NCBI GenBank assembly: GCA_001735895.1
Contig: DS021200.1
Location: 61,202 to 113,389, forward strand
Source: Olavius algarvensis Gamma 3 endosymbiont
GTDB taxonomy: Bacteria > Pseudomonadota > Gammaproteobacteria > GCA-001735895
Direction of reading: 5' to 3'
DNA: 52,188 nt
The position numbers were made by a program, and so were the translations under genes. Shown here piece after piece: positions 12,011 through 43,686 of the stretch (the stretch's first letter is position 1; each line of letters begins with the position of its first letter). The notes beneath the pieces are model-generated. The model ran no database searches, was not told the origin of the DNA, and was given only the letters and a program-made list of their open reading frames with translations.

Positions 12011-12016
12011 GGCTTT

Positions 12017-13752: not shown

Positions 13753-14253
13753 ATGAGCTCCAGTCCAGTCTTTAAAAAAACGGCAACAGGTCAGACGGAA
13801 GTCGACACCAACGAACACGAGTTGACGGCACTGCAACGACGTGTACTGATTTTGGTGAATGGCAGTAACGACAACGCGGCTTTGGCTAAAAAATCGCTCT
13901 GCAAAGATATCGATGAAACCCTTACCTACCTGCAGGCTAAGAATCTTGTCGAACCGGTGGCGGGCCAGACGGTCGAAACAGCGCCTGAAGAAGTAACGAT
14001 TCCTCTTGAACAGACACAACCCGGCGGCGCGGAGAATACCGAGGCCCGCGAATTCCTGAGCAATACCCTGCTCACATACTGCAATCGCGTTCGGGTCTCC
14101 AAATTAATCGATGAAATCGACGCCACAGCGGATGCGGACGGCCTCAAACAATTGGTCAATACCTGGTATCGGGCAATTTCGGAAACGCCTAACGGCGTTT
14201 ACGATGCCGACAACCTCAAACAGCGCGCACTGGAAATGCTGGGGTCGGATTAA
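13753..14253 (+). CDS. Hypothetical protein with N-terminal winged-helix-like segment
   Basis: A 166-aa soluble protein that I do not recognise at family level. Residues 22-65 (ELTALQRRVLILVNGSNDNAAL and following) look like the short helix-turn-helix-like segment seen in proteobacterial proteins of unknown function that begin LTxLQRRVLxLxDG. The middle (66-98) is low-complexity and acidic, and the C-terminal 70 residues are helical with a conserved-looking NTWYRAISETPNG. It has no signal peptide or membrane segment. It is divergent from the chemosensory operon, so a regulatory link is possible but unproven. Confidence 0.7.
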   Translation: MSSSPVFKKTATGQTEVDTNEHELTALQRRVLILVNGSNDNAALAKKSLCKDIDETLTYLQAKNLVEPVAGQTVETAPEEVTIPLEQTQPGGAENTEAREFLSNTLLTYCNRVRVSKLIDEIDATADADGLKQLVNTWYRAISETPNGVYDADNLKQRALEMLGSD

Positions 14254-25140: not shown

Positions 25141-26367
25141 TCAGGGATTCTTTATTTCCCGGTAGATAGTATCGGCCGCGGCGAGGATATCGGCATACAG
25201 ATACAAACCAACGATCTCAGCCGTTTTCAGGTTAATCGCAATACTTGGAGTTTCCTCAAACACTTGTTTCAGTTGCCGGGGTTTGGCGCCGTTGAGTATC
25301 TGCGCAATGGTTGCGGAAAGAAACAAACCCGCCGGTTTAAAACCCGGTCGGGATATGCTGAAAAGAAATCCTTGTTGAACTTCTTTTGCACCCAGTTGCG
25401 AGAATGTGGGTATGCTATTTTTATTGGCGATCTCTACGAGTTTCGGTATCGATTCCGTATTGACGCCGCCTTGAATCGTCACGTAAATAGCGTCGACCTT
25501 TTTCGACAACTTGTCAAAACACCGGATAACGCTCTTCGATGCAACTTCAGTATCCGATATATCGCTTTTGGTGTAGCATTTCACGACATCGAATCCGATA
25601 TCTGCCGCTACTTTTTCGACCGTGTCGATGGCCGAGTAACTGCGCCCGTAAATAGAGTCTTCGAACGCTATGCCAAGCTTTTTGAACTTGATGATGTCGT
25701 GAAAGATCCTGAGCTGCCGTTCATACCGGTATGGATCTACGCGCGCATGAACATGGTCGTACCCCGAGTCATCCTTGCTTTTTATGATTCCCGATTCCAC
25801 GGGGTCACTCGTCGACATGACAATTGTTGGCACCGAGTGTTCATCATTAGCCAGGTCGAGTCCCGCCCAGGTTCCCATGGCAATGACCAGGTCGATATCG
25901 TCTTGCGACGTCAAACGATCCAGTAGCTTGGATCTGTTCGTCTGTCGCTGATCATCGTCCCAATTGGCTGAATAATAGCCGTCTTCGAGGAATTCCAGGT
26001 ACTCGCTCTCCGATTTATTAACCAGCCAGTTCCATAGTCTTTTTGTATCCTTTCGCTTACGCTGGATTTTGGTAAGATCCGATTTTTCTATCCAGCCAAA
26101 ATTCATCAAACCCCGAATCGTTGCTTCCAGGTAGTGATAATAATTGGCATGAGGCCCCCCTTCATAAAAAACCACCCGCCACTTTTTCCCGTTGTTTAGT
26201 ACGGCCGAGGTACCGAATTTTTCAGCGATTTCGGCGGCCGGGGTCACTTTGGGGGTGAATTCGTATTCCGGCGCTTCTTTGTCGAAGCCTTCTTTGGCCC
26301 AAGTTGATGCACTTAGTATGCAAAGAAAAACGGTCGTTAAAATTTTGTAATGCATCTTTTTCCGCAT
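25141..26367 (-). CDS. Periplasmic substrate-binding protein (PF04392 ABC_sub_bind type)
   Basis: A 408-aa secreted protein with a signal peptide (about 1-24, ASTWA-KEGF) and a two-lobe binding fold: WRVVFYEGGPHANYYHYL, DLVIAMGTWAGLDLAN, STSDPVESGI, KKLGIAFED, DAIYVTIQGGVN and GLYLYADILAAAD. It resembles PF04392 ABC-type binding proteins, but no permease or ATPase is adjacent. It is a paralogue of the neighbouring broken gene upstream (81 bp away). These solo binding proteins may serve a sensor, perhaps one of the Cache or sensor-MFS proteins in the same-strand cluster, but that is inference. Confidence 0.82.
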   Translation of the reverse strand: MRKKMHYKILTTVFLCILSASTWAKEGFDKEAPEYEFTPKVTPAAEIAEKFGTSAVLNNGKKWRVVFYEGGPHANYYHYLEATIRGLMNFGWIEKSDLTKIQRKRKDTKRLWNWLVNKSESEYLEFLEDGYYSANWDDDQRQTNRSKLLDRLTSQDDIDLVIAMGTWAGLDLANDEHSVPTIVMSTSDPVESGIIKSKDDSGYDHVHARVDPYRYERQLRIFHDIIKFKKLGIAFEDSIYGRSYSAIDTVEKVAADIGFDVVKCYTKSDISDTEVASKSVIRCFDKLSKKVDAIYVTIQGGVNTESIPKLVEIANKNSIPTFSQLGAKEVQQGFLFSISRPGFKPAGLFLSATIAQILNGAKPRQLKQVFEETPSIAINLKTAEIVGLYLYADILAAADTIYREIKNP

Positions 26368-26448: not shown

Positions 26449-27600
26449 TTAATTACTATTAATTTCCTCGAAAAATTCATCCGTTGCGCCCATTAGAACG
26501 ATGGGGGGATCAAAACCGATAATTTCCGCGGTCTTTAGGTTTAACGCGATTTTCGGAGGCTCTTCATAAAGTTGGTTCAATTGGTTTGGTTGCGCGCCGT
26601 TAAGCACCTTGGCGATGGTCTCGGCATGAAACCTGCCAACGTATTTGTACCCGGCCCGGGACAGGCTTGCAAGAACGCCATAGCTGACCTCTCTGGCACC
26701 CGATTGGGAAAATGTCGGTATTTTGTGCTCGTTGGCAATCTCGACCAGAGTCGGAATGCTTCTGCCACTAACACCACCTTGTTGGGTAACATAAATCGCA
26801 TCGGCTTTTTTAACCAGTTCCTTAAAGCATTTAATCACGCCTTTTTCGGCTAATTCCTTGTCGCTGGTATCGCTTTTGGTATGGCAACGCACGATTTTGA
26901 AATCATGCGTTTTAGCCAGAGCCTCGATGGTATCGATCGCCGCATAGCTGCGCCCGGTAAGGCTGTCTTCATATACAATACCCAATTTATGAAACCCGAT
27001 CATCTCGTGGAATACCTTGAGTTGACGTTCGTTTCTTTTCGGGTCGACCCGCACGTGCACGTGGTCAAAACCCGAATCCTCGACGCTCTTGATGATCCCC
27101 GAGGAGATCGGATTGCTCGTCGAAAACACCAGGGTATTGGTTCTGTGGCGATAATTAGCCAGTCCTTTGCCGGCCCAGGTGCCCATCCCGATCATCAAAT
27201 CGATATCTTTATCGTTGTTTAATCGGAAGACAATCTCGTCTTCCACCTTACCGCGCTTATCGTTTTCCCATAAAGCGCTATAGTGTGCATTGGCGACAAA
27301 TTCGATGTAATCGCTCTTCACTTTCGTGCTAAGCCAGTCCCACAGCATATCGGTTGCCTCGCCGCTTTGCTTCGGCAATTCGGCGGTCTCAAGTCAGCCT
27401 AGTTGCATCAAGCCTTTGACTGTCTCGGTTAACTGTTTCTGGTAGTTAATATACGCGCCGCCTTCGTAGTAACCAATGCGCCACTTTTCGCCGTTATTGG
27501 TGGTCGGATCCACCTTGAAGAGTGGTTCAGCGGCGAAGCTGGCGGCCGGCCAAATCAGGAAAAGACTGATAAATACTAATAATTTTGATTTTAATTTCAT
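26449..27600 (-). pseudogene. Paralogous PF04392-type binding protein with in-frame TGA
   Basis: The frame runs from ATG 27600 (signal peptide ending ASFA-AEPL) through a single in-frame TGA at 27394-27396 to the stop at 26449. Without that stop it would be 383 aa and co-linear with the downstream paralogue. The TGA falls where the paralogue has Trp in NFGWIEK, so a TGG to TGA change explains it. All fold segments (GMGTWAGKGLAN, FSTSNPISSGI, DAIYVTQQGGVS) remain intact, so the lesion is recent or an error. An IS5-family element sits 21 bp upstream of the start, separating the gene from any upstream promoter. Confidence 0.88.
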
Positions 27601-27621
27601 TGTGCGACCTGCTTAAGCTAG

Positions 27622-28768
27622 GGAACCTCTGAAGAACCCGTTAAATTCTTATCGCCGACAACCGGGTGATATTTTTTCCTAGGGTTTCTCGGATAAGTTT
27701 CTGGTTTTTGGTATTTTCTTCTGAATGTCATCATCATTTCCCTATTCAGGGCGCACTAACCCTGCAGTGCCTGTAATTCCCTTCGGCACAGATACAGGTT
27801 TGCCAGCGCAAACAGGGTAAATACTTGCGCTGCATTTTTCTCGATTCCTTTGTAGCGAGTCTTGCTATAGCCCCACAAATCCTTCACGATTCGAAAGGCG
27901 TGTTCTCCCTTGGCGCGGGTTCGATTGCTCTTCCGGTTAAACGACCGATCCGCAATGTTCAGTTTCTTCCCTCGCCTCGCTTTACGGTTGATTCGCCACT
28001 CGACTCCAGACTCTTCAAATCGGGCTTTCTTCTCGGCATCTGCATAAGCCTTGTCACCATAAACGACTTGCTCCTCGCCATGAACCAGTTCCTCCATCAT
28101 CTGGGAATCGTGAACCGCTGCATCCGTCACCGCGACACTGTGCACCCGGCCATGCGTATCCGTGCCAACATGCGCCTTCATCCCAAAGTACCACTGGTTA
28201 CCCTTTTTCGTTTGCCTCATCTCCGGATCACGCTGCTTCTCCTTGTTCTTGGTCGAGCCCGAGGCACCAATGATAGTCGCATCCACAATCGTGCCTTCAT
28301 TCACGATTAAACCATGATCGCTCAGATAACCTTCAACCTGCTGAAACAGCTTTGTGGTTAGACCCTCTCGTTCCAGCCGATGGCGAAATCGACAGATTGT
28401 AGTTTCATCCGGTATCGACTCCAGATCTACGCCCACAAACCGGCGCATGGAGTCCGTATCGTACAAACTGTCCTCTGCAGCCGGGTCACTCAGTCCATAC
28501 CACTGTTGTAAAAAATAGATTCGCAACATTGATTCCAATGCGATCGGTGGCCTGCCCGTATGACCTTTCGGATAAAACCGCTTGATTGGCTTTACCAGTA
28601 ATCCCCACGGAATAATGGAGTCCATTTCCTGAAGAAAGCGCTCGCGTCGAGTCGTCTTTTTCTTATTGGCATATTCAAGATCGGAAAAGCTCGGTTGTTT
28701 CATCATTCAATCTCTGAAAACTTGTTCGACGTATTTTATCCCGCTAATATGACTTTTGCAGAGATTCC
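27622..28768 (-). mobile_element. IS5-family element (1147 bp, CTAG target duplication)
   Basis: The termini are imperfect inverted repeats (ggaacctctgaagaa at the left and the complement of ggaatctctgcaaaa at the right). The flanking CTAG at 27618-27621 and 28769-28772 is the YTAR-type 4-bp duplication of the IS5 group. It carries one intact transposase gene and inserted between the PF04392 pseudogene and the region with the 26-bp repeats. Confidence 0.93.
27756..28706 (-). CDS. IS5-family transposase
   Basis: A 316-aa DDE transposase. The N-terminal DUF772-type domain reads GRPPIALESMLRIYFLQQWY. The DDE residues are Asp in GTIVDATIIGAS, Asp in VVYGDKAYAD, and Glu in RAKGEHAFRIVK, the R-x3-E-x6-K signature of IS5 proteins. 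The length is full and no lesion was seen, so the element may be active. Confidence 0.95.
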   Translation of the reverse strand: MMKQPSFSDLEYANKKKTTRRERFLQEMDSIIPWGLLVKPIKRFYPKGHTGRPPIALESMLRIYFLQQWYGLSDPAAEDSLYDTDSMRRFVGVDLESIPDETTICRFRHRLEREGLTTKLFQQVEGYLSDHGLIVNEGTIVDATIIGASGSTKNKEKQRDPEMRQTKKGNQWYFGMKAHVGTDTHGRVHSVAVTDAAVHDSQMMEELVHGEEQVVYGDKAYADAEKKARFEESGVEWRINRKARRGKKLNIADRSFNRKSNRTRAKGEHAFRIVKDLWGYSKTRYKGIEKNAAQVFTLFALANLYLCRRELQALQG

Positions 28769-29037: not shown

Positions 29038-30574
29038 TTAATCCATTGAAATGCTTACAATTTTTCCACCCACCGCTGCATGGGCAAGTTTTGTAATTTC
29101 TATTTTTGCCCGACTAAAATCGCTGTCCCGGGGAACGACATCCACGATTGTGTCGTACAAAGAAGCAATATGTGACTGTCCTACCGTGACCTCTCCGATC
29201 CGTTCGTATTGCTCCGTATCCAGTCCCCCGCTGGCAATAATTTCCAGCGGCCCGGCCGGTAGCAGCTGACCGTCGGTTTTCAATCCAATCGCCTGCATGC
29301 CGGACAGGTAAAGATCCGGGCCTGATTTTCCGGTCCCAAGGGTTTTAAGCTTTTGCCCGGAACTGCCGCGCAGGATTTCAATGACGGCATTTTGCATGAT
29401 GGGCAAATAGTCAGCCTGGTAATAGCCACCGATGCAGCTAACTCCTCTGGCAATAGATATAAGAAGATATGATGTGAATATTGATGGTAACAAACGACCT
29501 TCCTGCAGCCCACGTCATATCTGCCGCGGTAAACGGGTATGCCCACAGTTGTCCGCTATCGTCTAAACCACGCAACTCAACGCCCGTTGCGTTTTCATCT
29601 TCCATGATACAAAGGGGAATCTTTCTTCCCTTTGCATCAACACCCCAAAAAAACATCGTCCCCTGGGCCGAATCTGCCTCGTTAAAACCTTTCACGGCTG
29701 CCGCGGCGGAGCAACGTCGCAATAGCTTTTCGTACTGCCAGCACCCCCGTTGCCCATCCAGGTTTTCGATTAGTTGCCGCCGCAACTCCGGATCGAACAT
29801 GAGTTGATGGCAAATCGTAGACTTGTCAAACAAGTCCTTCTCCAATAGCCGGGAGACAATACTTTCGATTTCGATATACACCAGTTCCGAGCGGCAAGAC
29901 CGGCCTCGAAACAGGCGCTGCCAAAATCGGTGGTTGACAACCGTCGCTTGCCTGCCATACCCGATGAACGCCTGGCCAACATTGGCAAAGTCATCGAATA
30001 CCGTATTAATTGCGGCCTCGAGAGCGCCTCCCAGTTTATAATCTGCAACCAGCCTGTTAGCCCTATCTCGAGAGCGGCATAACATCTCTGCAGTAAACGG
30101 CCCCACGACACTGACCAGTTTTCGCTTGTAACTGTCTGGAAATATCGGGAGTTTGCATATCCCGCCATCTCCAGGCACCGAGGTTCCGGCATAGACAAGA
30201 AGACCGCGTGGGTAAGTAAGATTATTCAGCGGTACGCTTCCGCAGGCCAATACCGGAACCGTTTTTACCGGTTTGCCGTCCAACCTTTTGCGCATTGAAA
30301 ACAACAGATTCGATTGCGTGGATTGCGCGAAAGTATCGATACCATGATGATTGGCGGTTAACACTTGCGGCCTCTCCCGCAGCTCCCCTGATATCGCTTC
30401 AGCTAAATCGGACCCTAGTGTTTCGCGGGTATAGGCGGCAATTTCGGTAATGAAGTCCTGATTGCCTTGAAAAGCGAAGCTATCGGGCTGCTCCAGCTGC
30501 GCGACGTAATCGCGTAATTTGGCCGATTCGAAGCGCGCAAGCAATGCATCGACCGCCGGCAAAATCTCCCGCAC
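29038..30574 (-). pseudogene. Unrecognised conserved-looking protein (~511 aa) with one-base frameshift
   Basis: The first frame (30574 to 29438) and second frame (open through 29493 to 29038) overlap, and they join if one base is removed from the ggaagg stretch at about 29497-29502, giving GR-LLPSIFTSYLLISI. The total is then 1536 bp. I do not recognise the family. Notable segments are VLTANHHGIDTFAQSTQSNL, a VPVLACGSVPLNNLTYPRGL stretch, GTSVPGDGG, GKSGPDLYLSGMQAIG and GLDTEQYERIGEVTVGQSH. No signal peptide or clear membrane segment is seen, so it may be a cytoplasmic enzyme. It lies 34 bp after the sensor-MFS gene and is the last gene of the tight six-gene operon. The function may involve the product of the DapF-like enzyme. 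Confidence 0.75.
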
Positions 30575-30608
30575 AGCGAGCAGGTAGGTTTCGATCGAGT
30601 CCGGTTTA

Positions 30609-33092
30609 TTAATTTGAAAGGGCGGCTTTTTGATTTCCCTGGGTCCCTGTGCGATTCATAACGAAAACTGCAAGTATCGACATTGCGCCAATGTAGGAAT
30701 ATCCGAGATAGTTGATGACTTCGGTCAAATCACCCGATAACAGTACCCAACCGAATATCACGGGACCCACGACCTGGCCGATGCGGCTAATCGACCTAAA
30801 TATGCCAAGCGCAGTTCCCTCGCCCAATGCACGCGATTCCTTCAGCTCCAATACCATCGTACTTTGGGAGGATAGTACAAAACTGCTCGACAAACCGAGC
30901 AGGAACACGGAAACAATCATCGATGCAATACCGAATTCGGTATTGAATGTCGCGAATGCCAGCCCCCCCAATAATCCACCAGCCAACATGTAATACCTTT
31001 TATTTTGCGACCGATCGATTAATCGCCCTATCGAGGGCCCGAAGTAGATCAGACAGATACCGTAAAGAATCAAAACCTGGCCGATTGTCGACTCTCTCGC
31101 TCCAATTTGATCCAGGTAAACCGGCGTAAAAAAATGCAAAAAGCCAGCAACCGCAATCGATGCCGGCAGGCTGCTTAATAGTGAGAGCGCTATAAAAACC
31201 GGATTACCGATAAACCTTAAAAGCGGCCTGAGCTTTATACTTTGTTTCGGTTTGTCCGCGGGAGCAGAGTCGCTATCGTTCCGGTCGCCGAGGGAACGCA
31301 TAAATTTCCACGAAAACACAATCAAGGCCAGCATCACTATCGCCCCCATAAAAAACACTTTCTCATAACCGAATCTTTCGGCGAGGAATGCGCCCGCCGC
31401 CGCGCCACATATGCTGCCGGAATAAAGTCCGGCAAAAAGACTGGCGAAGCCTCGAGCACGCCCATTTATCCCACCAAAACTAACAACCAGGCCTTGCGCC
31501 GACATCAGTGACAAGCCGTAGCCAACACCTACCAGCCCTCTGGAAAAAATAAACGTCAGGGCGTCGGTGGCGATCCAGGAACTCAAGGAGCCGATCCCAA
31601 CCACAAATAACCCTATAAAATAGGGCTCTTGCCAGCCCCTGCGATCCATCCATACGCCTGCAATTAAAATGAATATCCCAACGCATAGGAACTCGGCCGA
31701 AATAGGCAGTCCTAACACGATGTCTCTGGATAGACCGAACAACTCGGCGTCAAACGACTGCATGTGAAGCGGCACGAACGACATGGAGAGATCGATTGCG
31801 AACAAGAATAAAAACATGGCTGGCCGAACAAATCCTATTTCGTAACGCGCCCGATAGCGCACGCTAGTCTTGCGCTTAACCAGCAAATGCAAGTAGAGCA
31901 ACATACACTCGACCACGACTAAAGTGGTAATAAAGAGAATGGTGATCCCTTTGATCAGCAGCGATATCCAGTTCCTGAAAATATCTTCTTTCGAAATACG
32001 AATAACGGCGGTCCCGATGGGCTTCTCCGCCAGATTGAACCCGGTTAGCTGTTCAGCGATACGAAACTCCTTTTCCGGCAAGCGACCTATTACAGCGGTT
32101 TGAACCGCCGCCTCGATCCTCGACTCCCGACCCCGCTCGTCCTGATGACTGTAAACTGGTTTCCCGCGTGTATTGGTGAGTATGATTGCCTCGAAATTAT
32201 CAAATCGGGAAAAGGTTTCACTAAAGCCAAACTTCGGTATGCTCGAAACCTGGCCTGATTGTTTCAACGATAGTCGCTGATTCAGCCTGGCAGATATTTC
32301 AGTCGTGGTCTCACGCGCATGGTCTATGGAAGCTTCGAGAATCTGGCGTTCAAAAATTACGGCATTGACAAGTAAAGAGCAGGAGAGCGACGCCAACATT
32401 ATCAATACGAAGTCAACGACGAAATCTTTTTTCCTGGTTACCCGATTCTTAAATGCCAGTTGGAAATACAGAAACAAAATGCCAAAGACGCTAAAGGCTC
32501 CAACGACTATCGTGGGAAAAATATGCTCGTCCAACCTGGGGGCTACGGTGTGCCTCAAGGCTTCTTTCCGGAACTGAAAGATTAGACTGACAATCCAACG
32601 ATCCTGATTGTCGAATAGTAAATGCGGGACATAATAATGGTCATTGTCTTCTACAAACTCCAGTCCGGCCGAAGTTTCGCCGTTTGCAATTTCCAGCATC
32701 TGCTCTACGAGCACGGGCGATGTGTCGCTTTGCAGGTCCTCACTCGCTGTCGTTACCAATCTGGAGCCGCTTTTTAGCACCAGCGACAAATGAACTAGTC
32801 CACCGAAAGGTAAATTCTGGCCATCCGGAGCGGGGCGTTTTAATTTCTCCCAATGGCTATTTATCAGCTGGCGTTGACGATCCAGGAGTTCCCGCATTTC
32901 ATCAACCGACAAGCGTTTATTATTGCCGAGTGACTTTTCAATCGCGTCGCTCGCCGACTCCGTCGGAATCAGGAATTGCTTTATTTCCGAAACTTGATAG
33001 CCGTCCGTCAGCGCCGATCTAAGAAAAGCGGTATTGACAATAAACGCGAATGCCAATAAAACCGCCGAGCCGATTGCGAGCTTAAACTTCAT
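30609..33092 (-). CDS. Fusion of two extracytoplasmic sensor modules with an MFS transporter
   Basis: An 827-aa membrane protein. TM1 is about 5-24, followed by an extracytoplasmic module (25-187) with Cache-like segments. TM helices lie at about 190-213 and 224-246. A second extracytoplasmic module (247-375) contains FEAIILTNTRGKPVYSHQDE, and another TM is at about 376-400. A complete MFS domain of about twelve helices (about 420-815) ends the protein, with the MFS loop GVWMDRRGWQEP and repeat loop GRLIDRSQNKR. Known MFS carriers are about 400-450 aa; the doubled length comes from the sensory front. It could be an exporter gated by an external ligand, or a transport-sensor. It sits between the DapF-like epimerase (42 bp) and the unknown protein (34 bp). 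Confidence 0.87.
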   Translation of the reverse strand: MKFKLAIGSAVLLAFAFIVNTAFLRSALTDGYQVSEIKQFLIPTESASDAIEKSLGNNKRLSVDEMRELLDRQRQLINSHWEKLKRPAPDGQNLPFGGLVHLSLVLKSGSRLVTTASEDLQSDTSPVLVEQMLEIANGETSAGLEFVEDNDHYYVPHLLFDNQDRWIVSLIFQFRKEALRHTVAPRLDEHIFPTIVVGAFSVFGILFLYFQLAFKNRVTRKKDFVVDFVLIMLASLSCSLLVNAVIFERQILEASIDHARETTTEISARLNQRLSLKQSGQVSSIPKFGFSETFSRFDNFEAIILTNTRGKPVYSHQDERGRESRIEAAVQTAVIGRLPEKEFRIAEQLTGFNLAEKPIGTAVIRISKEDIFRNWISLLIKGITILFITTLVVVECMLLYLHLLVKRKTSVRYRARYEIGFVRPAMFLFLFAIDLSMSFVPLHMQSFDAELFGLSRDIVLGLPISAEFLCVGIFILIAGVWMDRRGWQEPYFIGLFVVGIGSLSSWIATDALTFIFSRGLVGVGYGLSLMSAQGLVVSFGGINGRARGFASLFAGLYSGSICGAAAGAFLAERFGYEKVFFMGAIVMLALIVFSWKFMRSLGDRNDSDSAPADKPKQSIKLRPLLRFIGNPVFIALSLLSSLPASIAVAGFLHFFTPVYLDQIGARESTIGQVLILYGICLIYFGPSIGRLIDRSQNKRYYMLAGGLLGGLAFATFNTEFGIASMIVSVFLLGLSSSFVLSSQSTMVLELKESRALGEGTALGIFRSISRIGQVVGPVIFGWVLLSGDLTEVINYLGYSYIGAMSILAVFVMNRTGTQGNQKAALSN

Positions 33093-33134
33093 ATCAGGAT
33101 CGCGACTTCAGTCTAGGTTCAAGACTTTGCGTCG

Positions 33135-34310
33135 TTAGAACTGTTTTGCATGTGGAGGGGGCAGATAATCTGTTTTACCGATGGGTGGCTCAAATCGAAA
33201 ATCGATTTCCGCCACTATTTCCGGCTGCCCCTCGAGTACCCAGCCGTGTTTGCTATTTTTCACTGCCATAAGGGCGTTCGGTTTGAACCACCTGCAGCGA
33301 TGGGGCAAAATTCTCACTCCGTTTCCTTCATATCCCTGAAAATAATTCACTATATAGGCAGCGGCGACGGCACCGGTACCACAAGCCAGCGTTTCCTTGT
33401 ATATACCGCGCTCATAGCAACGGAATTCAATCGAAGCGGTACCATGATCCTGCCTGACAAAATTAACGTTTACGCCAGCGGGAAACCTGTCCTGATAGTG
33501 CGTATTAACATATTGCCCGATATGATCTATTAACCAGGTGCCGAATCCACGCCTGCGCTGTAGCAAGGGTCCAGCTCCCCGGTCGCCTTCCGTGCTGGCA
33601 AAAATCGCATCGGCAAGTCCCGCCAACGGTGAGTCTTCATCGTCCAGTAAAAAAACCAGATGCGGTTCGCCGGTAAATATTAAATGACCTGCGAGGGATA
33701 ATTCTATCTCTGAAGAGTAAGGCTCCAGGTCATGATGTCTAAATTTGACGCACAGATCATTGATGGTTTGAACTTCGCCAACGCTACTATCGGAAGAAAT
33801 TTCTGTCCGAATATCCTCGGGGAACTTTCGTGGAATGCCAAGATTAACCCAACCGTAGGATTTAGCTTGCGAATAACCGATATCCGTCACATTCACCTTC
33901 GCGAGGGGAATCTCAGTCATGATGCTGGCACTTTCCACCTGATGTCTCTCGGACATATAGTTCGCAATACACATTAGTCCATTGCCACAACACAAAGCCT
34001 CCTGCCCATCAGGTTCAAACATTCTAAATATATAGTCCGCCTTGCATTTGGGAATTTTTTTCCAGTAATTGTGAACCTGGTTGATTGCCAGCAGATCGCC
34101 TGCGCTACAATTTTGAATCACAAGAAAATTGTCAGCACCGATACCGAATTGTGGATCGGTGATTTGTCGCGCAAATTCGGAAAAATGAATTTCCTCAAGA
34201 ATTCCTTCGTCGGTTCCATCGTAAATCAAAAAGTTATTGCCAAAACAATTCGCCTTGACGATTTCGATATCGAGTGTGTTTCGCAGGGCACGTAAATTGG
34301 TAATAGTCAT
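33135..34310 (-). CDS. DapF-like amino-acid epimerase/racemase
   Basis: A 391-aa member of the PLP-independent diaminopimelate epimerase superfamily. Both catalytic cysteines are present: Cys108 in CCGNGLMC and Cys310 in ETLACGTGAVAAA. Other DapF features are the KANCFGNNFLIYD start and GEPHLVF. Housekeeping DapF is about 275 aa, and this protein is longer, with insertions around 65-95 and 225-275, so it is probably not the cell-wall enzyme. Histidine racemase CntK of staphylopine synthesis is a DapF homologue that works beside an MFS exporter, so a metabolite-making role is plausible. It is the fourth gene of the operon, with 36-42 bp gaps on either side. Confidence 0.88.
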   Translation of the reverse strand: MTITNLRALRNTLDIEIVKANCFGNNFLIYDGTDEGILEEIHFSEFARQITDPQFGIGADNFLVIQNCSAGDLLAINQVHNYWKKIPKCKADYIFRMFEPDGQEALCCGNGLMCIANYMSERHQVESASIMTEIPLAKVNVTDIGYSQAKSYGWVNLGIPRKFPEDIRTEISSDSSVGEVQTINDLCVKFRHHDLEPYSSEIELSLAGHLIFTGEPHLVFLLDDEDSPLAGLADAIFASTEGDRGAGPLLQRRRGFGTWLIDHIGQYVNTHYQDRFPAGVNVNFVRQDHGTASIEFRCYERGIYKETLACGTGAVAAAYIVNYFQGYEGNGVRILPHRCRWFKPNALMAVKNSKHGWVLEGQPEIVAEIDFRFEPPIGKTDYLPPPHAKQF

Positions 34311-37288
34311 TCAGATGTTTGTCCAGGAGTTCATCAAACGGAAGTATCACGCTGCCGTGCGTTGTATTTCCTGTTCCAGCAATTCACAAATTTTTGGAAA
34401 TAGCGCTTCTATTTCCTCGAGAATTTTTCCGGCGCCATTTATGTCTTTATCCCGGCCCATATCTTCAAGCTTTGCACTTAACTCGAATATCTTTCGAGCT
34501 CCGATATTCCCGCTTGCCGATTTCAGGCTGTGAGCCGAGTCTCGAATGGACTCGCAGCATCCATCTTGTATCGACGAATTGAGTTTATTAATTAATTCGG
34601 GTGCCGTGTTGTGATAGATTTCTAATAATTGCGCAAGGATACTGGATGACTGCGGACTCTCCAAGGCCCTGATGCTGTTTAAAGTGTTGATATCCAATAG
34701 CTCATCTTCGTCATGCTCGGCGGGACTCTCGATTTCCGCGGCTGCCGGTGCCAGCACTTGGCTAGAATTGGGGTCGAATCCTTGCTCGGCTCGATGCCAT
34801 TTCGAGATCACATCCCTCAGTTGCGCCATCGTGAACGGCTTACTGAGATAATCGTCCATGCCACAAGCCAGGCATCTATCCCGATCCTCTTTGCGCGCAT
34901 TCGCGGTTAACGCCACGATAACGACGCCCTCTTCCACACCCGACTCTCTTTCCTGGTCTCTAATTATTCGCGTGGCCTGGTAACCATCCATTTCGGGCAT
35001 TTGACAGTCCATTAGAATCATGTCGTATCGATTTTTTTCGTTCATGGAAACCGCTTCTTTTCCATTTTCCACCAGGGTCAGATCGCATTCAAAAATCCGT
35101 AATATTTCAGTAACGAGTTTTTGGTTGACCGGGTTATCCTCCGCTACCAGTATGTTGGCGCCGATCCGGGTACCGGTAAAACTTTGCTCACCGGCCTGGG
35201 ATTCGTTACGATCGAGCCAAAATTGGGTATCGCTGGAAAGCATTCTCTGAATCGCCACGCGCGGTACCGGTTTAGCGATGGCGAAGTCCACCCCTTCCAA
35301 TGCCGAGATCCCATCGTCAAACTTGTGCTTTAGTAATACCAGCAACCCGCAGCGCAGGGAGTCGGCGCCGGTGAACTTTCGCAAATCGGCAATTTTGTCC
35401 TGGTATACAGATAAGTCCTGGTGTGAACCCGTATCGCATAAGATGGGGTCAAAACGTTTGGCACGCGTTCTACGCTGCTGGGTAAACTCCGGAATCTCAT
35501 CGAAGCTGATCACGGTAGGCGGCAATCCCTGTTCTGCCGCAATTCTCACAGTGAGACTAGCGCCGAGTACCTCGGAATCGGTGACCAATAGGATCTTTTG
35601 GGCCGGGGTTTTCGGCTGCTCGAATGGCTGGCTTGCTGCGGTAGTTTGCAGTGACATCGTAAACCAGAACGCGGAGCCTTCATCCTTCTTGCTGGAAACG
35701 CCAATTTCACCCCCCATCAGTTCAACCAGATGTTTGCAGATCGAAAGACCAAGACCTGTTCCGCCGTAACGTCGCGTGGTTGAACTGTCGGCCTGGGAGA
35801 ACGAATTAAATATCTGTTGCTGTACATTCTTGTCGAGTCCGATTCCGGTATCTCGAATTACCACCTTGACAGTTACCCGGTCACTACTTCTGTCAATAAT
35901 CCTTGCTGATATTTCGATATGGCCCTGTTCGGTAAACTTGATTGAGTTGCCACACAGATTGGTAATGACTTGATGCACCCGCGACGGATCGCCCATATAA
36001 CAGTCCTGAAATAACTCCGGCTCGGGTGAGCAGACGAGTTCCAGGCCCTTGTTTTGCGCCATTTCCGCGAACATGGCTCCCGAGGATTCCAATAGATCGC
36101 CCAGGCTGAACTGAGTTGCCTCTAGTATCATTTTCGAGGCCTCGATCTTCGAAAAATCAAGAATATTATTAATAATTGACAGCAAGCTGTTACCCGATTC
36201 CCGTAAGGTGGCCAAGAAATCTTTTTGGCGGCTATTCAGATTGGTGTGTGTCAGTAACTCCATCATGCCGAGTATACCGTTGATCGGGGTTCGAATTTCG
36301 TGACTCATATTCGCCAGAAACTGACCCTTTGCGCGACTGGCCTCTTCCGCGGCCTCCCGCTCCAGACGCTCTTTCGCCGCGGTCGATTCAATGGCTGCAG
36401 TAATATTTTTTTTCAGTTCTTTTTCCATGAACACGAAAGACTGGGCCAATCGACCGACTTCGTCTCGGTACTTCAATGGTAATTTGGCAATCTGATCCGA
36501 GGATTTTGACTCCTTGGTAAAATCGACTTTCGGCAATTGTTTTGCGTAATCGCTGAGTACTTTCAACGGTTTCGAAATCTTGGAAACGAAAACGAAGGTG
36601 AACACCGTGCTGACCAAGAAAATAAGGCCGATTACCAACATTTGCCGCCGCAGCACCGCCTTTCCCGGAGCTTCAATTTCTTCTACTGGGACAACCACGG
36701 CAAAATACCAGTCGAATGCCTTGAAATAACTGACATGCGCCTCGAGCAGTTCATTGTTGTCGCTATTAGGATCCGGATAGCGGATAGAGTCTATTTTCTC
36801 GTTATAGGCATTCTTGAGATCGCTGGTCAATAAGCTCCCGGTACTGGCATTAATTACACCGCCAAATTCAGCGGATTCAAGGCCAGGCGGCGCTATCAGG
36901 ATTTCCCCGTTTCCGCCGAATAGAAATGCGTAACCCGTACTTGCGATTTTAATTTTGCTAAAGGTTTTTTCGAGCAGCTTGACAATGTTATTGAGTACCC
37001 GTTCACTCTCCTTTTCTATGTTGTCGAAGTCAATGGCAACCCCGATGGTCCAGTCCCATTCGCGCAGCGGAATGAAATAAGCCAATTTCTTGACCTCTGG
37101 TTGTCCTTCGGCCTGCCAGTGAAATACCGCAATTTCCCCTTCTTCATCAAGATTCTTATTATTCATTACCTCGACTAGGCGTCGGCTTTTTATATCGTAG
37201 ACGGAACCAAAATCTTCGAAAGTGTTGTTGACGTCCGAGAAACCAACAACCTTTCCACTGCTGTCAAACACAAAAACATTTATCTGCT

Positions 37289-38840
37289 GATTCTGTTGAA
37301 AAACTCGGTTATTAAATGGCCGATTTCCGCGCACCAAATCACGGCGATGATTGGATCACTTCGGTAATCCACATTTTTCGTGGATTTTGTTCTGGTTTAG
37401 TTGCTTTTGATCGGATTTAGCATAAAGCAGGCGCACCTATCCTGTAATCAGGCGGTTTAAATCGTTGTTGCGCCAACTTCTTCAGGTTTTGCGCTGTGGC
37501 TGCCAGTAAAAATTCGTCATGTGCGCCAGTGATACCGCGCAATCGTAAACGGTCAAAGTTCATTACTCGCTTAAGATGGGCGAACAGCACTTCAACCTTT
37601 TTTCTGTCTTTCCTGGATTGTAAATATTCCGTGGTCTCGCAAATATCCCTGGCAACGTCACGAGATGATTCATAGATACCGGGATTTAAGTTCGCAGGTT
37701 TTACAGTCATGCTGACTTGAGCGATAGATAATCGTGTTGGCTTTGGTAACGGGTGAACGCGGTTTTTTGAATGGGCGATTTCTGCATCTCAGTAGCTTGT
37801 TCGCCGGGCAATAATAACAATCGGCTTCGTTATCCCAGGTGAATGCAGCCCGACCAAACATGCCCGGTTTACCGTGAGACTTATCCCAAACCGGAATATG
37901 CGGCTCTATCTGTTTTTGCTCCACCACCCAATCCAGCATCTCCGCAGAGCCATAAGAGGTATCGGCTATGAGTCGTTCAGGTTTGATTGCCAGTTTCTCT
38001 TCGACCCGGTCAATCATGGTTCGAGTGCTACTGACCTCAGCGATTCGATAAGCCGGTGTAGGCTCGACATCCATGATGACATTGTGTTCAATATCGATCA
38101 GGTAATTGGTGCTGTAATAAAACTGGCCTGGTCCTTTGTCGCCCGCCCACTGTGCCATCGGATCGGTGGTAGACACTTTCTTCTGTGTTCTTGTTGCTGA
38201 AGGATCGTTGTCTAGCGCATCCAGATATTCTCTTACCGCCCGTGACTGTGTGGGTGATGGTTGCCAGTCAACCGGACCATCGGCCATACGCTGCCGGGAA
38301 GCATCGGCTTTGATATAGCTGGCATCGGTGGCGAAGCCTTCGCCTTTGATGAGCCCTTCATCGTTACAGCGCTGCACCACCGTATCAAAGACCAGTCTCA
38401 GCAGGTCAGCATCCCGGAAGCGGCCATGCCGGCTCTTGGAAAATGTTGAATGATCCGGTACTTTATCTTCCAAACCCAAACGACAGAACCAACGGTAGGC
38501 CAGGTTGTATCGGATCTCGTCACATAACCGTCGCTCTGACCGGATGCCGTAACAGTAGCCGACCAATAACATCCGAATCATGAGCTCAGGATCAATCGAC
38601 GGCCTGCCGGTATGGCTATAAAAGGGGTCAAGGTGGACACGGGTTTGATCAAAGTCGAGAAACTGATCTATCTGGCGGAGAAGATGCTCGTCTGGAATGT
38701 GCTTTTCCAGGCAAAACTCGTAAAACAATGCGTTCTGCTGCGCCGGTAGTTGTCCCATCATGGGAGACTTCCTAATGAAGTGGATACCGAACTCGATTAT
38801 CTCATGGCCGAGTCATAATCGAGAGTTTTTCAACAGAATC
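37289..38840 (-). mobile_element. IS1182-type element (1552 bp, TGCT target duplication) inside hybrid kinase gene
   Basis: Both ends carry the inverted repeat gattctgttgaaaaactc, and the 4-bp TGCT flanks the element at 37285-37288 and 38841-38844. It carries a transposase gene broken in its 3' part. The insertion lies in the Cache domain of the kinase. The boundaries could shift by up to 3 bp because the target resembles the repeat end (gcaga/gatt). Confidence 0.9.
37417..38761 (-). pseudogene. IS1182-type transposase, frameshifted
   Basis: The frame from 38761 encodes 363 aa with the IS1182 layout: N-terminal GRPSIDPELMIRMLLVGYCYG, first Asp in FATDASYIKADAS, second Asp in IADTSYGSAEML, and the Cys-rich YYCPANK/CKTCELKSR. 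It then stops at 37670. The C-terminal part, with Glu in RKKVEVLFAHLKR and the DEFLLAATAQNLKKLA tail, continues in another frame (37710 to 37417). The short Cys-Pro-rich stretch usual between these parts is missing, so a small deletion shifted the frame. The element is probably not autonomous. Confidence 0.88.
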
Positions 38841-39201
38841 TGCTCATAACTGACATTAGACAACCAGCTCAAAGCTCTTTGCTTAGCTGAAATACCATTG
38901 CGGCTCTGTTCGCCGGCTAGAGATTCGAATTCCCGAAAAACGGAAGAACTGATATGACCGACGTTTTTAAGATCGGTCTTCATCCGGTTGAGTATGTCGA
39001 TTTTATCGGCAATGAGTCGGTTGTATCCGCCTCGAATATTCAAGCGGACAAGTTCGAGTACGTTGCGCGCCGACTTCTGTTGCGCATCAAACATCGTCTT
39101 ACCGACATCCCGCTGCGTGAAGTACATAATGCTCGTCGCGGTAACAACGAGTACCAGGCTGATAAGAAAGACAATCTTCGAACTTATCGAGTTATACAGT
39201 T

Positions 39202-41406
39202 TTAGTGCCATTTAGTTATCGGCCCACGTATTTTATTCTTTGAATCGGCATCCATCCTCCGCACTTCCCAGCTGTTCAACCAGTTAGCAAAGTCCTGTGG
39301 CGACAAGGGCAAGCTGGCAAGGCTTCCCTGAATTTCGTCACAATGCGCTCGAGCCAGGATAGCCTTCTGCACATCGGTTTCGACACCCTCGGCTATAACG
39401 GTCATGCCTAAGCTATGCGCTAACTTGACAATACCGCTTACGATAGCCGTATATTGGTTATTCGGATCAATCGAATGGATAAACGATTTATCGATTTTCA
39501 GGGTCTTTGCCGGAAGTTTCCCAAGATAGGACAACGAAGAGTACCCCGTTCCAAAATCATCAATTGCCAGCCCGCATCCCATCTTTATAAACTGATTCAA
39601 AATGTTCAGGCTGGATTCAAAATTCGCGAGCAAAGTGCTTTCAGTTAACTCGAATTCGATAATTTCATTATTGATCGGGCTAGCCGAAATATAATCGACG
39701 ATACGTTTCATCGCCTGTTCGTCGAGGAGTTGCTTCGGTGAAATGTTGATGCTAACACCGAAGTCATAATCAAATTCCGTTTTCCATTTCAATAACTGAT
39801 TACAGGCGGTTCTCAACACCCAGCCGCCCAACTCACCTATCAGACCCTCATCTTCGGCGATTGCGATGAACTCGGTTGGTGAAATCTCCCCCAAGGTTGG
39901 ATGGTTCCATCGACACAAGGCTTCCACCCCAACCAATGTATTGTCGAGCAGGCTAACCTTGGGCTGATAGTAGACTTCGAGCGTCTCCTGTTGCAACGCT
40001 TTTCTTAAGTCATGGGCGAGCGAAAAATTTCTTGTCACCTGATCATTTAGTTCACGCTTAAAGTACCTGAAGCCCTCAGGGTTTTCATTATTTACGGATC
40101 CTTTTGCTATTTCAGCAAATTTAATCAGCTGGTTGGTTGAATTCCCGTCGAGCGGCGCGAGGCTGATGCCGGCCGTGGTCTTGACGTAAATTTTCCTGTC
40201 ATTTACCCGAAATGCCTGCTCGAACTGCTCCATTAGCCGATGCAGGAACATCGACGCAGCTTGCGGGCTGCTGACTTCAGAAAGGACAATGACAAATTCG
40301 TCGTTCCTCAGCTTGGCAGTAAGCTGATGGTAACTGATGTTTTCCCCGGCCTGATTCCCGACCGACTCGCGAGACAATAAGTCGCTTTCCCGGCAAGAAT
40401 TTTTGACTCGTTCTGCAATCATCTTGATCAAATTCTCAGCCGAGTCGTGGTCCAGGCTTTCTACCAGCTTGTCGAATTTTTCGACGCCAAACACAATTAC
40501 GGCCGTCGTAGTTTGGTAGCGCAAGGCGCTTTTTAAGGTGCGATCCAGGTGCTGGATTAAAAGGCTACGATTTGGAAGACCCGTTAAGTCGTCGTAGTAA
40601 GCAAGTTCGTGTAGTTTCTTTTCGGTATCAATTCGATCGGTGATATCCTGCAGCGTCACAACCATTCGATCCGGTTTTTTTGAGCCTAAGCGGTCCTCCG
40701 ATATTTGCAAAACAAATCGAACGCTGCCATCCGACCGAACTACCCGATGCTCCAGATTTAGCGCATTACCGTTTAACAGCGATTGGGAAATCGAAGCAAC
40801 GACCCGGTCCTTGTCGTCGGGGTGAACGCAGTCGATGAAATGATCGAAGTGGGTGAATTTCGCTTGCTCCGGCAATAAAAGAATTTCACGGATTCCATTC
40901 GAGCAGTGGACAATTTCACGATCCGCATTCCACTCAATATGCCCAAGGTCCGCGATTCGCTGTGCATTGTTTGATCGCTGCTGGGAGTTTCTGAGTTCTT
41001 CAGCGATATTTGAGGCGCGCATAATATAGTCAATTCGGAATCCCAACAATACGAAGCTGATCGGTTTTGCGACAAAGTCGGTGGCGCCAACTTCGAAAGC
41101 CTTTTTTATCGACTCGGTATCGTCCTGCCCGGTGAGCATCAGGATGGGCAGGTTTTTCCCTTTTTCCAGTTCGCGAATAGACTTGCAAGCTTCGAAACCA
41201 TCCATTTGAGGCATTCTGATATCCAATAAAACAATATCGAATTCGTCGTGCGTTAATGCCTCAACCGCCTCTATTCCGTTATTAACGGTCGAAACTACAT
41301 ATCCTTTTTGTTCCAGGAGTGCGCCTAGAGTCAGCTGGATGCCCGCGTCGTCGTCTGCTAACAAAGCCTTTAGTTTTTTAGGCGAACTGGCGGCGGCTTG
41401 AATCAT
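39202..41406 (-). CDS. Response regulator with REC-PAS-GGDEF(degenerate)-EAL domains
   Basis: A 734-aa cytoplasmic protein. REC (residues 10-130) has the phospho-Asp in IVLLDIRMPQMDG. A PAS domain covers about 145-265. In the GGDEF domain the active-site loop reads RNDEF instead of GGDEF, so cyclase activity is unlikely. The EAL domain (about 470-715) keeps VGVEALCRWNHP, FELTEST, AIDDFGTGYSS and K/D residues of an active c-di-GMP phosphodiesterase. It is the second gene of the operon, 18 bp after a similar protein, overlapping the kinase start by 10 bp. It probably lowers c-di-GMP on phosphorylation, with the degenerate GGDEF acting as a GTP or c-di-GMP sensor. Confidence 0.93.
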   Translation of the reverse strand: MIQAAASSPKKLKALLADDDAGIQLTLGALLEQKGYVVSTVNNGIEAVEALTHDEFDIVLLDIRMPQMDGFEACKSIRELEKGKNLPILMLTGQDDTESIKKAFEVGATDFVAKPISFVLLGFRIDYIMRASNIAEELRNSQQRSNNAQRIADLGHIEWNADREIVHCSNGIREILLLPEQAKFTHFDHFIDCVHPDDKDRVVASISQSLLNGNALNLEHRVVRSDGSVRFVLQISEDRLGSKKPDRMVVTLQDITDRIDTEKKLHELAYYDDLTGLPNRSLLIQHLDRTLKSALRYQTTTAVIVFGVEKFDKLVESLDHDSAENLIKMIAERVKNSCRESDLLSRESVGNQAGENISYHQLTAKLRNDEFVIVLSEVSSPQAASMFLHRLMEQFEQAFRVNDRKIYVKTTAGISLAPLDGNSTNQLIKFAEIAKGSVNNENPEGFRYFKRELNDQVTRNFSLAHDLRKALQQETLEVYYQPKVSLLDNTLVGVEALCRWNHPTLGEISPTEFIAIAEDEGLIGELGGWVLRTACNQLLKWKTEFDYDFGVSINISPKQLLDEQAMKRIVDYISASPINNEIIEFELTESTLLANFESSLNILNQFIKMGCGLAIDDFGTGYSSLSYLGKLPAKTLKIDKSFIHSIDPNNQYTAIVSGIVKLAHSLGMTVIAEGVETDVQKAILARAHCDEIQGSLASLPLSPQDFANWLNSWEVRRMDADSKNKIRGPITKWH

Positions 41407-41424
41407 ACAAAACTCCTTATCGGA

Positions 41425-43686
41425 TTAATCTGTGTTGAATCCGGTAATGTCGGTACGATCGACATCGAACGCAATAGACCGCGAAATCTGGATCGCCCGC
41501 TTGGGTTCCATGATCGAAAATCCCTGGGCATACTCACAGGAGGCTCCTCGCAGATTTTCGTAAATAGCGCCTGAAGCGCTACCCTCGGCGACCACCGTCA
41601 TCCCGAGATTATGCGCCAGTGAAACAATGGCGTTAACGATTTGCTGCTTGTCCGCACGTTTATCCAATTCACTGATAAACGTTCGATCGATTTTGAGCTC
41701 GTCGAATGGGAATTGGTGGAGATAGCTAAAAGAGGAATGGCCAGTGCCGAAATCGTCGATGGATAAATGGATGCCCCGCGTGCGCAAGGTATTCATCGTT
41801 TGAAGGGCATGGCTACTATTTTTAATCAGTGAAGACTCGGTGATTTCAAGTTTCAGGAATATTGGGTCGAGGCCGGTCTTATCCAGGATATCGTTAATGG
41901 CGCTGATCAGATCCGGTTGGGCCAGCTCCGGCGCTGACAAATTGACACTGATTGTCCAGTCTCTCGCCTCTGCCCATTGCTCCTTCCAAGTCTGCATCTG
42001 GCGGCATGCTTCGGTTACTACCCACCTGCCGATAGGCACAATCAAGCGGGATTCAACTGCCACCTCGAGAAAGTCATCCGGAATTAGCACTCCCAATTTC
42101 GGATGATTCCATCGAATCAGGGCTTCAAAACCGGATACCGTCTCCTCCGAAATCTCGACGATTGGCTGGTAGTACACATCAAATTGTCCTTCCTCGAGCG
42201 CCTGCCGCAGATCGGATTCGATCCGCAAAATACTCATCGCCTTTTCATGCATGGTCGAATCGAAGATTTCATAACGCGAACTGGGGCGGACTTTCGCCCG
42301 GTACATTGCAGTATCTGCGTCGCGTAGCATATCCTCCGGGCGTTTGTAGCCTATGCTGCTTTCTGTTATTCCGATACTGCAGCTGACAACCACCTTTTGC
42401 CCCTCCAGGTCGATCGGCCGCAATAATTCCTTATGGATACGTTCAGCCTGGTTTGTCGCCATAGTTATGTCGGAAGTATCTTCACACAGGATTACAAACT
42501 CATCGCCACCGAGTCGCGACAGCGTGTCACCTTTGCGAATGACCTGCTTGATGCGTGCGCCGATTTCCACCAACAACTTATCTCCGAGCAGGTGGCCCAG
42601 ACTGTCATTGATGACCTTGAAGCGATTCAAATCCAGGTAAAGCACGGCGAAATTGTAATTTTCACGCCGAGAAGATAGTTCGATACAATGACTGAGCCGG
42701 TCGAGAAACAGGATTCGATTGGGCAAGCCGGTGAGTGCGTCGTGAACCGCATCGAATACCAGTTTTTCTTCGGCTTGCTTGCGGTCGGTAATATCAGTTT
42801 GCGATCCGATCATTCTATACGCCACATCGTCGTCATCCCTGACCGCAAGTCCGCGACACATCATCCAGCGATAATTATTTTCGGCATTCTTGATCCGATA
42901 TTCGCTTTCGAAAAGGTCAGTTTTCGCGGTTTTGTGTGCATGGAGTTCGGTAATCACGCGGCTCTTGTCGTCACGATGGATTCTTCCGATCCATTCCAGA
43001 GGATCGTTACCGATATCCTCTTCCTCGTAGCCGAGCATGGATTTCCATCTTGGGGAAAGATAAACCTTGTCGTCTTTATAGTCCCAGTCCCAGAGCCCGT
43101 CGTTGGCGCCGCGGGCTACCAGACTGTATCGCTCTTCGCTCACCTGCAAATCGCGAAATGCGGTAGAGGCGCGCAATATGTAATTGAGTTTGTAGGGGAG
43201 CAATTCCCAATTCATCGGTTTTTCGCAATAATCGGTAGCGCCGACAGAGAAGGCTTTTTCGATGGAATTCGCATCGTTGAGCCCCGTCAGCATGACAATT
43301 GGAATATGCTCACCCTGCTTCATCGCCCGAATCAATGTACACAACTCGAAGCCATCAACAATCGGCATCATTACATCGCACAACATTAAATCCGGAGTTC
43401 TTGCCTCGAATTTTTCAAGCGCCTCCCCACCGTTTTCTGCCAGTTCGACTTCAAACGATCTGTTCTCGAGGGCTTGTTGTGCCAAAAAACGAATCATGGG
43501 GTCGTCATCCGCCACCAAAATCAAAGGCGCGGCCTCGCTGGGTTGCCGACCATCCTCGGAAGGGGTTTCCCTACCTTTACTAGGGGTTTTATCTGACTTT
43601 GGATCGACTGCGCTATCCGATTTTTTATCCGTATCCTTTGACTTTGGGTCGACGGAATCCAAATTGCCAGGGGCTTGTGATTTCAC
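41425..43686 (-). CDS. Response regulator with REC-PAS-GGDEF-EAL domains
   Basis: A 753-aa protein and the first gene of the operon. A low-complexity acidic/Lys N-terminus (1-50) precedes REC (about 52-170, Asp in LMLCDVMMPIVDG) and PAS/PAC (about 185-310, GANDGLWDWDYKDDKVYLS). The GGDEF domain has an intact RLGGDEFVIL loop. The EAL domain (VSGFEALIRWNHP, LKLEITESS, SIDDFGTGHSS) is also intact in its visible motifs. It could both make and degrade c-di-GMP, switched by the kinase relay. The two paralogous GGDEF/EAL proteins differ in cyclase competence, suggesting a divided task. Confidence 0.93.
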   Translation of the reverse strand: MKSQAPGNLDSVDPKSKDTDKKSDSAVDPKSDKTPSKGRETPSEDGRQPSEAAPLILVADDDPMIRFLAQQALENRSFEVELAENGGEALEKFEARTPDLMLCDVMMPIVDGFELCTLIRAMKQGEHIPIVMLTGLNDANSIEKAFSVGATDYCEKPMNWELLPYKLNYILRASTAFRDLQVSEERYSLVARGANDGLWDWDYKDDKVYLSPRWKSMLGYEEEDIGNDPLEWIGRIHRDDKSRVITELHAHKTAKTDLFESEYRIKNAENNYRWMMCRGLAVRDDDDVAYRMIGSQTDITDRKQAEEKLVFDAVHDALTGLPNRILFLDRLSHCIELSSRRENYNFAVLYLDLNRFKVINDSLGHLLGDKLLVEIGARIKQVIRKGDTLSRLGGDEFVILCEDTSDITMATNQAERIHKELLRPIDLEGQKVVVSCSIGITESSIGYKRPEDMLRDADTAMYRAKVRPSSRYEIFDSTMHEKAMSILRIESDLRQALEEGQFDVYYQPIVEISEETVSGFEALIRWNHPKLGVLIPDDFLEVAVESRLIVPIGRWVVTEACRQMQTWKEQWAEARDWTISVNLSAPELAQPDLISAINDILDKTGLDPIFLKLEITESSLIKNSSHALQTMNTLRTRGIHLSIDDFGTGHSSFSYLHQFPFDELKIDRTFISELDKRADKQQIVNAIVSLAHNLGMTVVAEGSASGAIYENLRGASCEYAQGFSIMEPKRAIQISRSIAFDVDRTDITGFNTD

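Follow-up and report, generated by a model that had tools for sequence, protein, structure and literature searches.

The staphylopine cnt cluster combines a racemase related to DapF, the diaminopimelate (DAP) epimerase, with a transporter of the major facilitator superfamily (MFS), and LuxPQ-type signalling pairs a periplasmic binding protein with a sensor kinase. Parts of both arrangements are found together in an operon of the Olavius algarvensis Gamma 3 endosymbiont, located in a stretch of 52,188 nucleotides (contig DS021200.1, positions 61,202 to 113,389; hereafter the window). The operon encodes a DapF-like racemase, an MFS protein with its own sensor domains (sensor-MFS), a protein without recognised fold (UNK), substrate-binding proteins (SBPs), a Cache hybrid kinase (HK), and two proteins of cyclic di-GMP (c-di-GMP) metabolism with receiver domains (GE1 and GE2). 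The cnt cluster differs by the presence of CntL and CntM, neither of which has a recognised relative here, and by the lack of UNK, SBPs, kinase and c-di-GMP proteins. The likeness to LuxPQ-type systems, known from the gene arrangement, consists of secreted binding proteins encoded beside a periplasm-sensing hybrid kinase; here, however, the racemase and UNK replace LuxS, and the sensor-MFS and c-di-GMP proteins with receiver domains are present. Other DapF-like racemases (CntK, HisR, O-ureido-serine racemase) share the DapF fold and the two catalytic cysteines with the present enzyme, which differs from them in being linked, and once fused, to a sensor-MFS. HisR and CntK are described in PMC11602996 as DapF-like racemases in other roles. 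A literature search, with subscription journals mostly outside its coverage, returned no title describing a system like the one reported here.

The distribution of the system was followed through UNK. A scan of a collection of genome contigs with the UNK alignment gave 21 loci. The tallies that follow are based on 29 genomes or plasmid groups with UNK, in which six Streptomyces plasmid records (NBC_01420 and NBC_01423 examined) and three Nitratidesulfovibrio records (DP4 examined) count as one each, and from which a solitary second UNK of genome G149 is left out; the search profiles were partly derived from these same loci. An MFS gene is found at 24 of the 29 UNK loci (19 with the sensor part and 5 plain, the latter in actinomycetes), a PF04392-type protein at 21/29, and a racemase or epimerase at 20/29. 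The locus of G455 is reduced to broken pieces of the DapF, the sensor and UNK together with an SBP; it enters the racemase and SBP tallies and is left out of the MFS tally. The lack of MFS at L032 means little, because a masked stretch adjoins UNK. UNK occurs in Pseudomonadota, Desulfobacterota, Myxococcota (two metagenome-assembled genomes (MAGs) so labelled), Bacillota, Actinomycetota and Lentisphaerota, and is accompanied by a racemase in five of these six phyla, Myxococcota being the exception. It is rare: 7/395 Desulfobacterota genomes (two weak or broken), 1/391 genomes in the class of a Clostridia match, and 1/369 genomes in the class of the window, this one being the window genome itself. 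The sole UNK-like protein of G395 is distant, with 384 aa. Each of 16 genomes has 0 to 6 PF01168 matches, and each of 11 genomes one to three PF01678 genes. Given these counts, chance would place a racemase within about 12 kb of UNK at only a few per cent of loci, as estimated with no shuffled control. The initial annotation, made from the window sequence, had suggested looking for co-occurrence of these genes across genomes; other genomes do hold them together, both within the genus and in other phyla.

Some loci have further neighbours. An SBP-MFS-UNK set is carried by a Nitratidesulfovibrio vulgaris DP4 plasmid (L011, 4217-11197), next to a gene annotated as a type III secretion system (T3SS) chaperone. 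In two Desulfobacterota MAGs, related genes of 384 and 378 aa adjoin the SBP (L032, 13129-14283; L043, 2320-3456); the 384-aa gene of L032 has no Pfam match. The solitary second UNK of G149 (L036, 9406-10932) is flanked by genes that appear, by eye, UvrA-like and WecB-like.

The racemase is exchanged between loci. It is DapF-like at 13 of the 20 racemase loci: five in the genus of the window, one in Desulfohalobiaceae (L033), those of G149 and G455 (decayed), and five in actinomycetes. At four UNK loci, all Desulfobacterota (L030, L031, L038 and L066), the gene beside UNK resembles the ornithine racemase Orr; the first three were scanned with the NCBIfam Orr model and score 238-260 bits, below the cut-off of 480, and L066 was assigned with a profile built from these three. 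In two Clostridia, a full alanine racemase (Alr) is fused to the N-terminus of UNK, and in one Lentisphaerota genome an epimerase-like gene of the enolase superfamily (MR_MLE) adjoins UNK. The racemases of UNK loci thus belong to four families but three folds, since the PF01168 fold is common to Orr and Alr. When the five racemase labels are mapped on a UNK tree of 27 rows, they require 7 changes, where the minimum possible is 4. A second kind of fusion is found in G149, where the DapF-like domain and the sensor-MFS form a single protein of 1212 aa (L053, 3840-7478); UNK, the kinase and two SBPs come next, and then the beginning of a gene that matches the GGDEF-EAL profile. The DapF-sensor-MFS and Alr-UNK fusions are the best indication of joint action by racemase, UNK and sensor-MFS. 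In the Clostridia locus L041, the set made of Alr-UNK, SBP and sensor-MFS is flanked by two AAA ATPases with winged-helix-variant domains (3529-5541 and 11775-13859).

The DapF-like enzyme of the cluster belongs to a clade apart from housekeeping DapF. Eleven cluster proteins were aligned with 11 housekeeping DapFs, mostly from the same genomes, and the two groups are fully separated on the tree (100/100). Both catalytic cysteines, N11, G74, N75, E208 and R209 are kept in 11/11 cluster proteins. Residues N64 and N157 are both replaced by Glu in all 11, and position 190 holds Asn in six of them and His in the other five. In the housekeeping controls, N64 is present in 11/11, N157 in 9/11 and N190 in 11/11. 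According to PMC8225329, Asn64 and Asn157 of the Haemophilus influenzae DapF bind the distal carboxylate. The cluster protein has the reacting centre expected of PF01678 but not the full set of distal-carboxylate asparagines (N64, N157 and N190), and it was classed as a member of the superfamily and not as a DAP epimerase. The proteins of L033 and L055 score 100.3 and 86.6 bits on TIGR00652, under the cut-off of 114.65. As Asn64 and Asn157 are replaced by Glu, the substrate probably lacks the distal carboxylate of DAP, and its side chain may be cationic or hydrogen-bonding. The exchange for Orr-like racemases and the presence of an amidinotransferase in actinomycetes agree with such a substrate.

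A comparable pocket is that of PddB, a pyridoxal-phosphate-independent 2,4-diaminobutyrate racemase that has the DapF fold and the two catalytic cysteines, and in which the residues of the distal carboxylate are also replaced (PMC8225329). PddB differs in having Val in place of R209, and is described in the same source as inactive on Lys, Orn and Arg, whereas the cluster clade keeps the E208-R209 pair and has Glu at positions 64 and 157. An O-ureido-serine racemase, again a DapF-like racemase in another role, is among the PDB matches. The possibility that the cluster protein is the only DapF of its genome, which the initial annotation named as fatal to its proposal, was rejected for the window genome, where a separate standard DapF lies on another contig. 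A standard DapF is also found in 8/9 other examined genomes with a cluster DapF, the exception being G149.

UNK was modelled with pLDDT 87.5 and pTM 0.90. A Foldseek search of the PDB gave no match under E 0.001 (best E 0.51), and the best row among the viral folds of BFVD (E 0.0027, TM 0.27) was not accepted as homology; "new fold" is used here for the lack of a match in PDB and BFVD. Among 19 members, one has a weak Pfam match (DUF5663, E 0.006) and none matches NCBIfam. Three members searched in PHROGs and PADLOC gave no match in the former and one at E 0.042 in the latter, leaving a role as a defence or phage protein without support. The sole match under E 10 of the UNK profile to PDB sequences covers 32 residues of a cytochrome construct (E 0.0013). 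Residues invariant in 19 rows include Q227, E255, D265, R283, W297, T321, W325 and Y404, and H97 is nearly so; such conservation suits an enzyme. Two genomes without UNK have other genes with the sensor-MFS. In G548, a GCS2-like ligase lies between sensor-MFS and SBP (L134, 3522-5030), and in G392 the sensor-MFS is accompanied by a GNAT protein (weak FeeM-like match), an SBP, a DapF-like racemase and a kinase (L135, 8709-16672). The position of this ligase or GNAT next to a sensor-MFS that has no UNK suggests, by analogy, that UNK might perform amino-acid ligation or acylation. A distant UNK-like protein of 384 aa is found beside genes that appear, by eye, aminotransferase-, creatininase- and EPSP-synthase-like (L069, 6217-7371), hinting at a wider UNK superfamily.

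In actinomycetes, UNK belongs to clusters of another composition, found in two Streptomyces lineages, Thermoactinospora, Actinomadura parvosata and Nonomuraea. These comprise genes for TauD, the DapF-like racemase, a cupin, a methyltransferase, a decarboxylase-like protein, an SDR, an amidinotransferase, a zinc dehydrogenase, an MFS transporter, a FemAB-like protein and UNK, and only the clusters of Streptomyces were found to have an ATP-grasp amino-acid ligase as well. The DapF-like gene is about 9-12 kb from UNK, within the same cluster. The composition looks like that of a natural-product pathway, which would argue for a biosynthetic role of racemase and UNK.

The transporter domain of the sensor-MFS matches MFS_1 with E 6.4e-39, above the cut-off, and two extracytoplasmic domains flanked by transmembrane segments were read from the sequence; the fusion of an MFS to two such sensor domains is found outside actinomycetes. 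The model of this protein is moderately confident (pLDDT 73, pTM 0.68). Its sensor part best matches WalK (E 3.6e-7, TM 0.26), and more weakly TlpQ, LuxQ and other sensor domains (E near 0.005); the LuxQ row, one among several sensors, is a further, weak likeness to LuxPQ-type systems. The SBP is related to the PF04392-like chains 6hni, 3lft and 3lkv (E 1e-8 to 2e-7), the ligands of which are presumably aromatic amino acids. With REC and Hpt domains in the kinase and a REC domain in both GE1 and GE2, the proteins fit a phosphorelay that leads into c-di-GMP.

The operon of the window was delineated by searching with the unbroken proteins of a relative (L014), which allowed the split genes to be placed, as follows.

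41425..43686, minus strand: GE1, REC-PAS-GGDEF-EAL protein by Pfam, with an intact GGDEF motif and an EAL motif readable in the translation.
39202..41406, minus strand: GE2, REC-PAS-GGDEF-EAL protein by Pfam, with readable EAL motif and degenerate GGDEF motif (RNDEF).
38813..39211, minus strand: 5' piece of the Cache hybrid kinase, severed by an insertion, matching L014 kinase residues 1-125 (93%).
37670..38761, minus strand: transposase (DUF772; DDE_Tnp_1 below cut-off) of the element inserted in the kinase gene.
34347..37337, minus strand: remainder of the Cache hybrid kinase, dCache_2-(HAMP, weak)-HisKA-HATPase-REC-Hpt, with homology starting at 37289.
33135..34310, minus strand: DapF-like racemase, 391 aa, DAP_epimerase by Pfam, of a clade distinct from housekeeping DapF.
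30609..33092, minus strand: sensor-MFS, 827 aa, two PAS/Cache-like extracytoplasmic domains flanked by transmembrane segments, then the MFS domain.
29438..30574, minus strand: N-terminal two thirds of UNK, a frameshifted gene, with homology from 30637; the true start may overlap the end of the MFS gene.
29038..29493, minus strand: C-terminal third of UNK, in another frame, with homology to L014 UNK.
27756..28706, minus strand: second transposase-like gene, between UNK and SBP2, recognised by eye only.
26449..27378, minus strand: SBP2, a substrate-binding protein related to SBP1, truncated by an in-frame stop, with homology running to 27606.
25141..26367, minus strand: SBP1, a PF04392 substrate-binding protein with a signal-peptide-like start.

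The initial annotation had described a six-gene operon. The genes it named are all on the minus strand, and their coordinates, gaps and overlaps in the list of open reading frames (ORFs) are as it gave them; the domains it assigned were recovered with Pfam (REC/PAS/GGDEF/EAL twice, dCache_2-HisKA-HATPase-REC-Hpt, DAP_epimerase and MFS_1). The operon is real but longer, comprising eight genes in relatives with the two SBP genes past 29038. The unknown protein of "511 aa" consists in the window of two frames, where relatives have one, and the kinase is split by the insertion element. Residues 1-125 of the L014 kinase align to 38837-39211 and residues 123-1107 to 34350-37289. Residues 7-381 of L014 UNK align to 29513-30637 and residues 377-539 to 29041-29529 in a different frame, which could be an assembly error. 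Homology to the L014 SBPs covers 26452-27606 for SBP2, with the stop inside, and 25144-26367 for SBP1. GE1 is 78% identical to its L014 orthologue. Because of the split kinase, the UNK frameshift and the stop in SBP2, the window copy as a whole is probably non-working. Elsewhere in the window, a 741-aa protein with MAM, Ig-like and cadherin-like domains is encoded at 14544-16769.

Intact copies are found in relatives. The order GE1-GE2-HK-DapF-sensorMFS-UNK-SBP-SBP is complete in G003 and G013, and partly visible in G014 and G025 up to where the contigs end inside the operon. The relatives' kinases have 1105-1109 aa and their UNK proteins 532-539 aa. UNK is present in 5/143 related genomes, including that of the window, and the identical five carry the DapF-like protein, counted at E values up to 1e-30. 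For seven genes compared in pairs within the genus, leaving out kinase rows with MO140 that were misframed, pN/pS is 0.08-0.39, indicating that the operon genes were under constraint. The idea that unrelated genes came together by chance in a single genome, for which the insertions breaking the window copy might be invoked, is refuted by the gene order shared among congeners, the set shared with other phyla and the two kinds of fusion.

The observations to be explained are the recurring gene set, the replacement of the racemase, the two kinds of fusion, a UNK that matches no fold, a DapF clade of its own in which the pocket is altered, and the domains of a relay. The explanation we favour, with about an even chance of being correct, is a patchily distributed and undescribed system in which racemase and UNK would make an amino-acid-derived extracellular metabolite, the sensor-MFS would move it, and SBPs and kinase would read it into c-di-GMP. 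A D-amino-acid metabolite that is made, transported and sensed had been proposed in the initial annotation; the replacement of the racemase and the two fusion kinds favour this idea, which stays conditional. We infer substrate, product, UNK chemistry, export over import and self-sensing along the following steps. The racemase would supply a D- or otherwise epimerised amino acid, the side chain of which is probably basic, and UNK would turn this amino acid into a small metabolite, perhaps through a ligation or an acylation. An external ligand would control the sensor-MFS as it carries the metabolite across the membrane. Outside, the binding proteins would catch the metabolite and hand it to the Cache kinase, the REC/Hpt relay of which would act on the two REC-GGDEF-EAL proteins and set the level of c-di-GMP. 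A bolder form can be put forward tentatively: a new class of bacterial extracellular signal, amino-acid-derived, made by an exchangeable racemase and a new-fold synthase, exported by a self-sensing transporter and read by SBPs and a phosphorelay into c-di-GMP, with actinomycetes making a natural product with the same racemase-UNK pair.

Several observations weigh against this explanation. No racemase was detected at 9/29 UNK loci in searches for DapF, PF01168/Alr and, at one locus, MR_MLE, other families being outside the search. Three of the nine (L043, L045 and L068) are on contigs of <10 kb, and the genome of G156 has no PF01168 match anywhere. Six of the nine form one UNK clade (100/99) with only SBP-MFS-UNK, so that the racemase is not obligatory. 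Profile searches found no sensor-MFS, SBP or kinase in the actinomycete clusters, hence self-sensing is not general. The sensor part is commoner than UNK (30/395 versus 7/395 Desulfobacterota genomes, many of the sensor matches being partial), some sensor-MFS genes (L133) have no other part of the system nearby, and G149 has a UNK that stands alone. The DapF-like protein of the window scores 123.8 bits on TIGR00652, above the cut-off, and the clade retains R209, the salt-bridge partner of the distal carboxylate. The ligands known for PF04392 proteins are aromatic amino acids, and TrpX is listed as a tryptophan/tyrosine binding protein, neither of which favours a basic amino acid. Finally, the window copy itself is decayed.

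The strongest rival is uptake and catabolism, which is possible though doubtful. Here, SBPs and the sensor-MFS, as a transceptor, would import or sense an external amino acid or peptide, racemase and UNK would convert it, and c-di-GMP would track the nutrient. PF04392 proteins are classical uptake components, as the listing of TrpX illustrates, and racemases are frequent in amino-acid catabolism. By eye, no gene for an ATP-binding cassette (ABC) permease or ATPase was noticed beside the SBPs in the ORF lists, on which no profile search was made, and in five actinomycete clusters UNK and the DapF-like protein are found among tailoring enzymes of biosynthetic type. The MFS domain points both ways, all below cut-off: its best NCBIfam row is a multidrug-resistance model, and it is weakly similar to importers such as MhpT.

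Remodelling of the cell envelope is unlikely. The racemase would make a non-canonical D-amino acid to be attached or released by UNK, with the sensors monitoring the wall. Such a role would accord with the functions of Alr and DapF in peptidoglycan, with the FemAB_like protein of the actinomycete clusters and with WalK as top match of the sensor model; a housekeeping DapF is however present besides the cluster copy, and secreted SBPs and an MFS suit a soluble metabolite better.

An opine-type metallophore system such as that of staphylopine, with DapF-like racemase, synthase and exporter, is more improbable still. The initial annotation had cited staphylopine as its nearest precedent while seeing no synthase or opine dehydrogenase. 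The pairing of a DapF-like racemase with an MFS recalls cnt, a weak likeness. Scans of the operon genes recognised neither a nicotianamine-synthase-like protein nor an opine dehydrogenase, and the genes other than UNK fall into other families. With no recognised partner like CntL or CntM, no metallophore enzyme matched by the UNK profile among PDB sequences, and a racemase that varies over four families, this candidate is disfavoured.

The reading of the locus as a system that makes, moves and senses an amino-acid-derived metabolite can be tested, as relatives are present in named strains of Streptomyces, Nonomuraea and Nitratidesulfovibrio vulgaris. A protein family without recognised fold recurs in several phyla beside racemases of three unrelated folds, mostly also with an MFS. 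If the reading is true, this would mean a new chemistry of amino-acid metabolites, a transporter with extracellular sensors of its own, and a new input into c-di-GMP.

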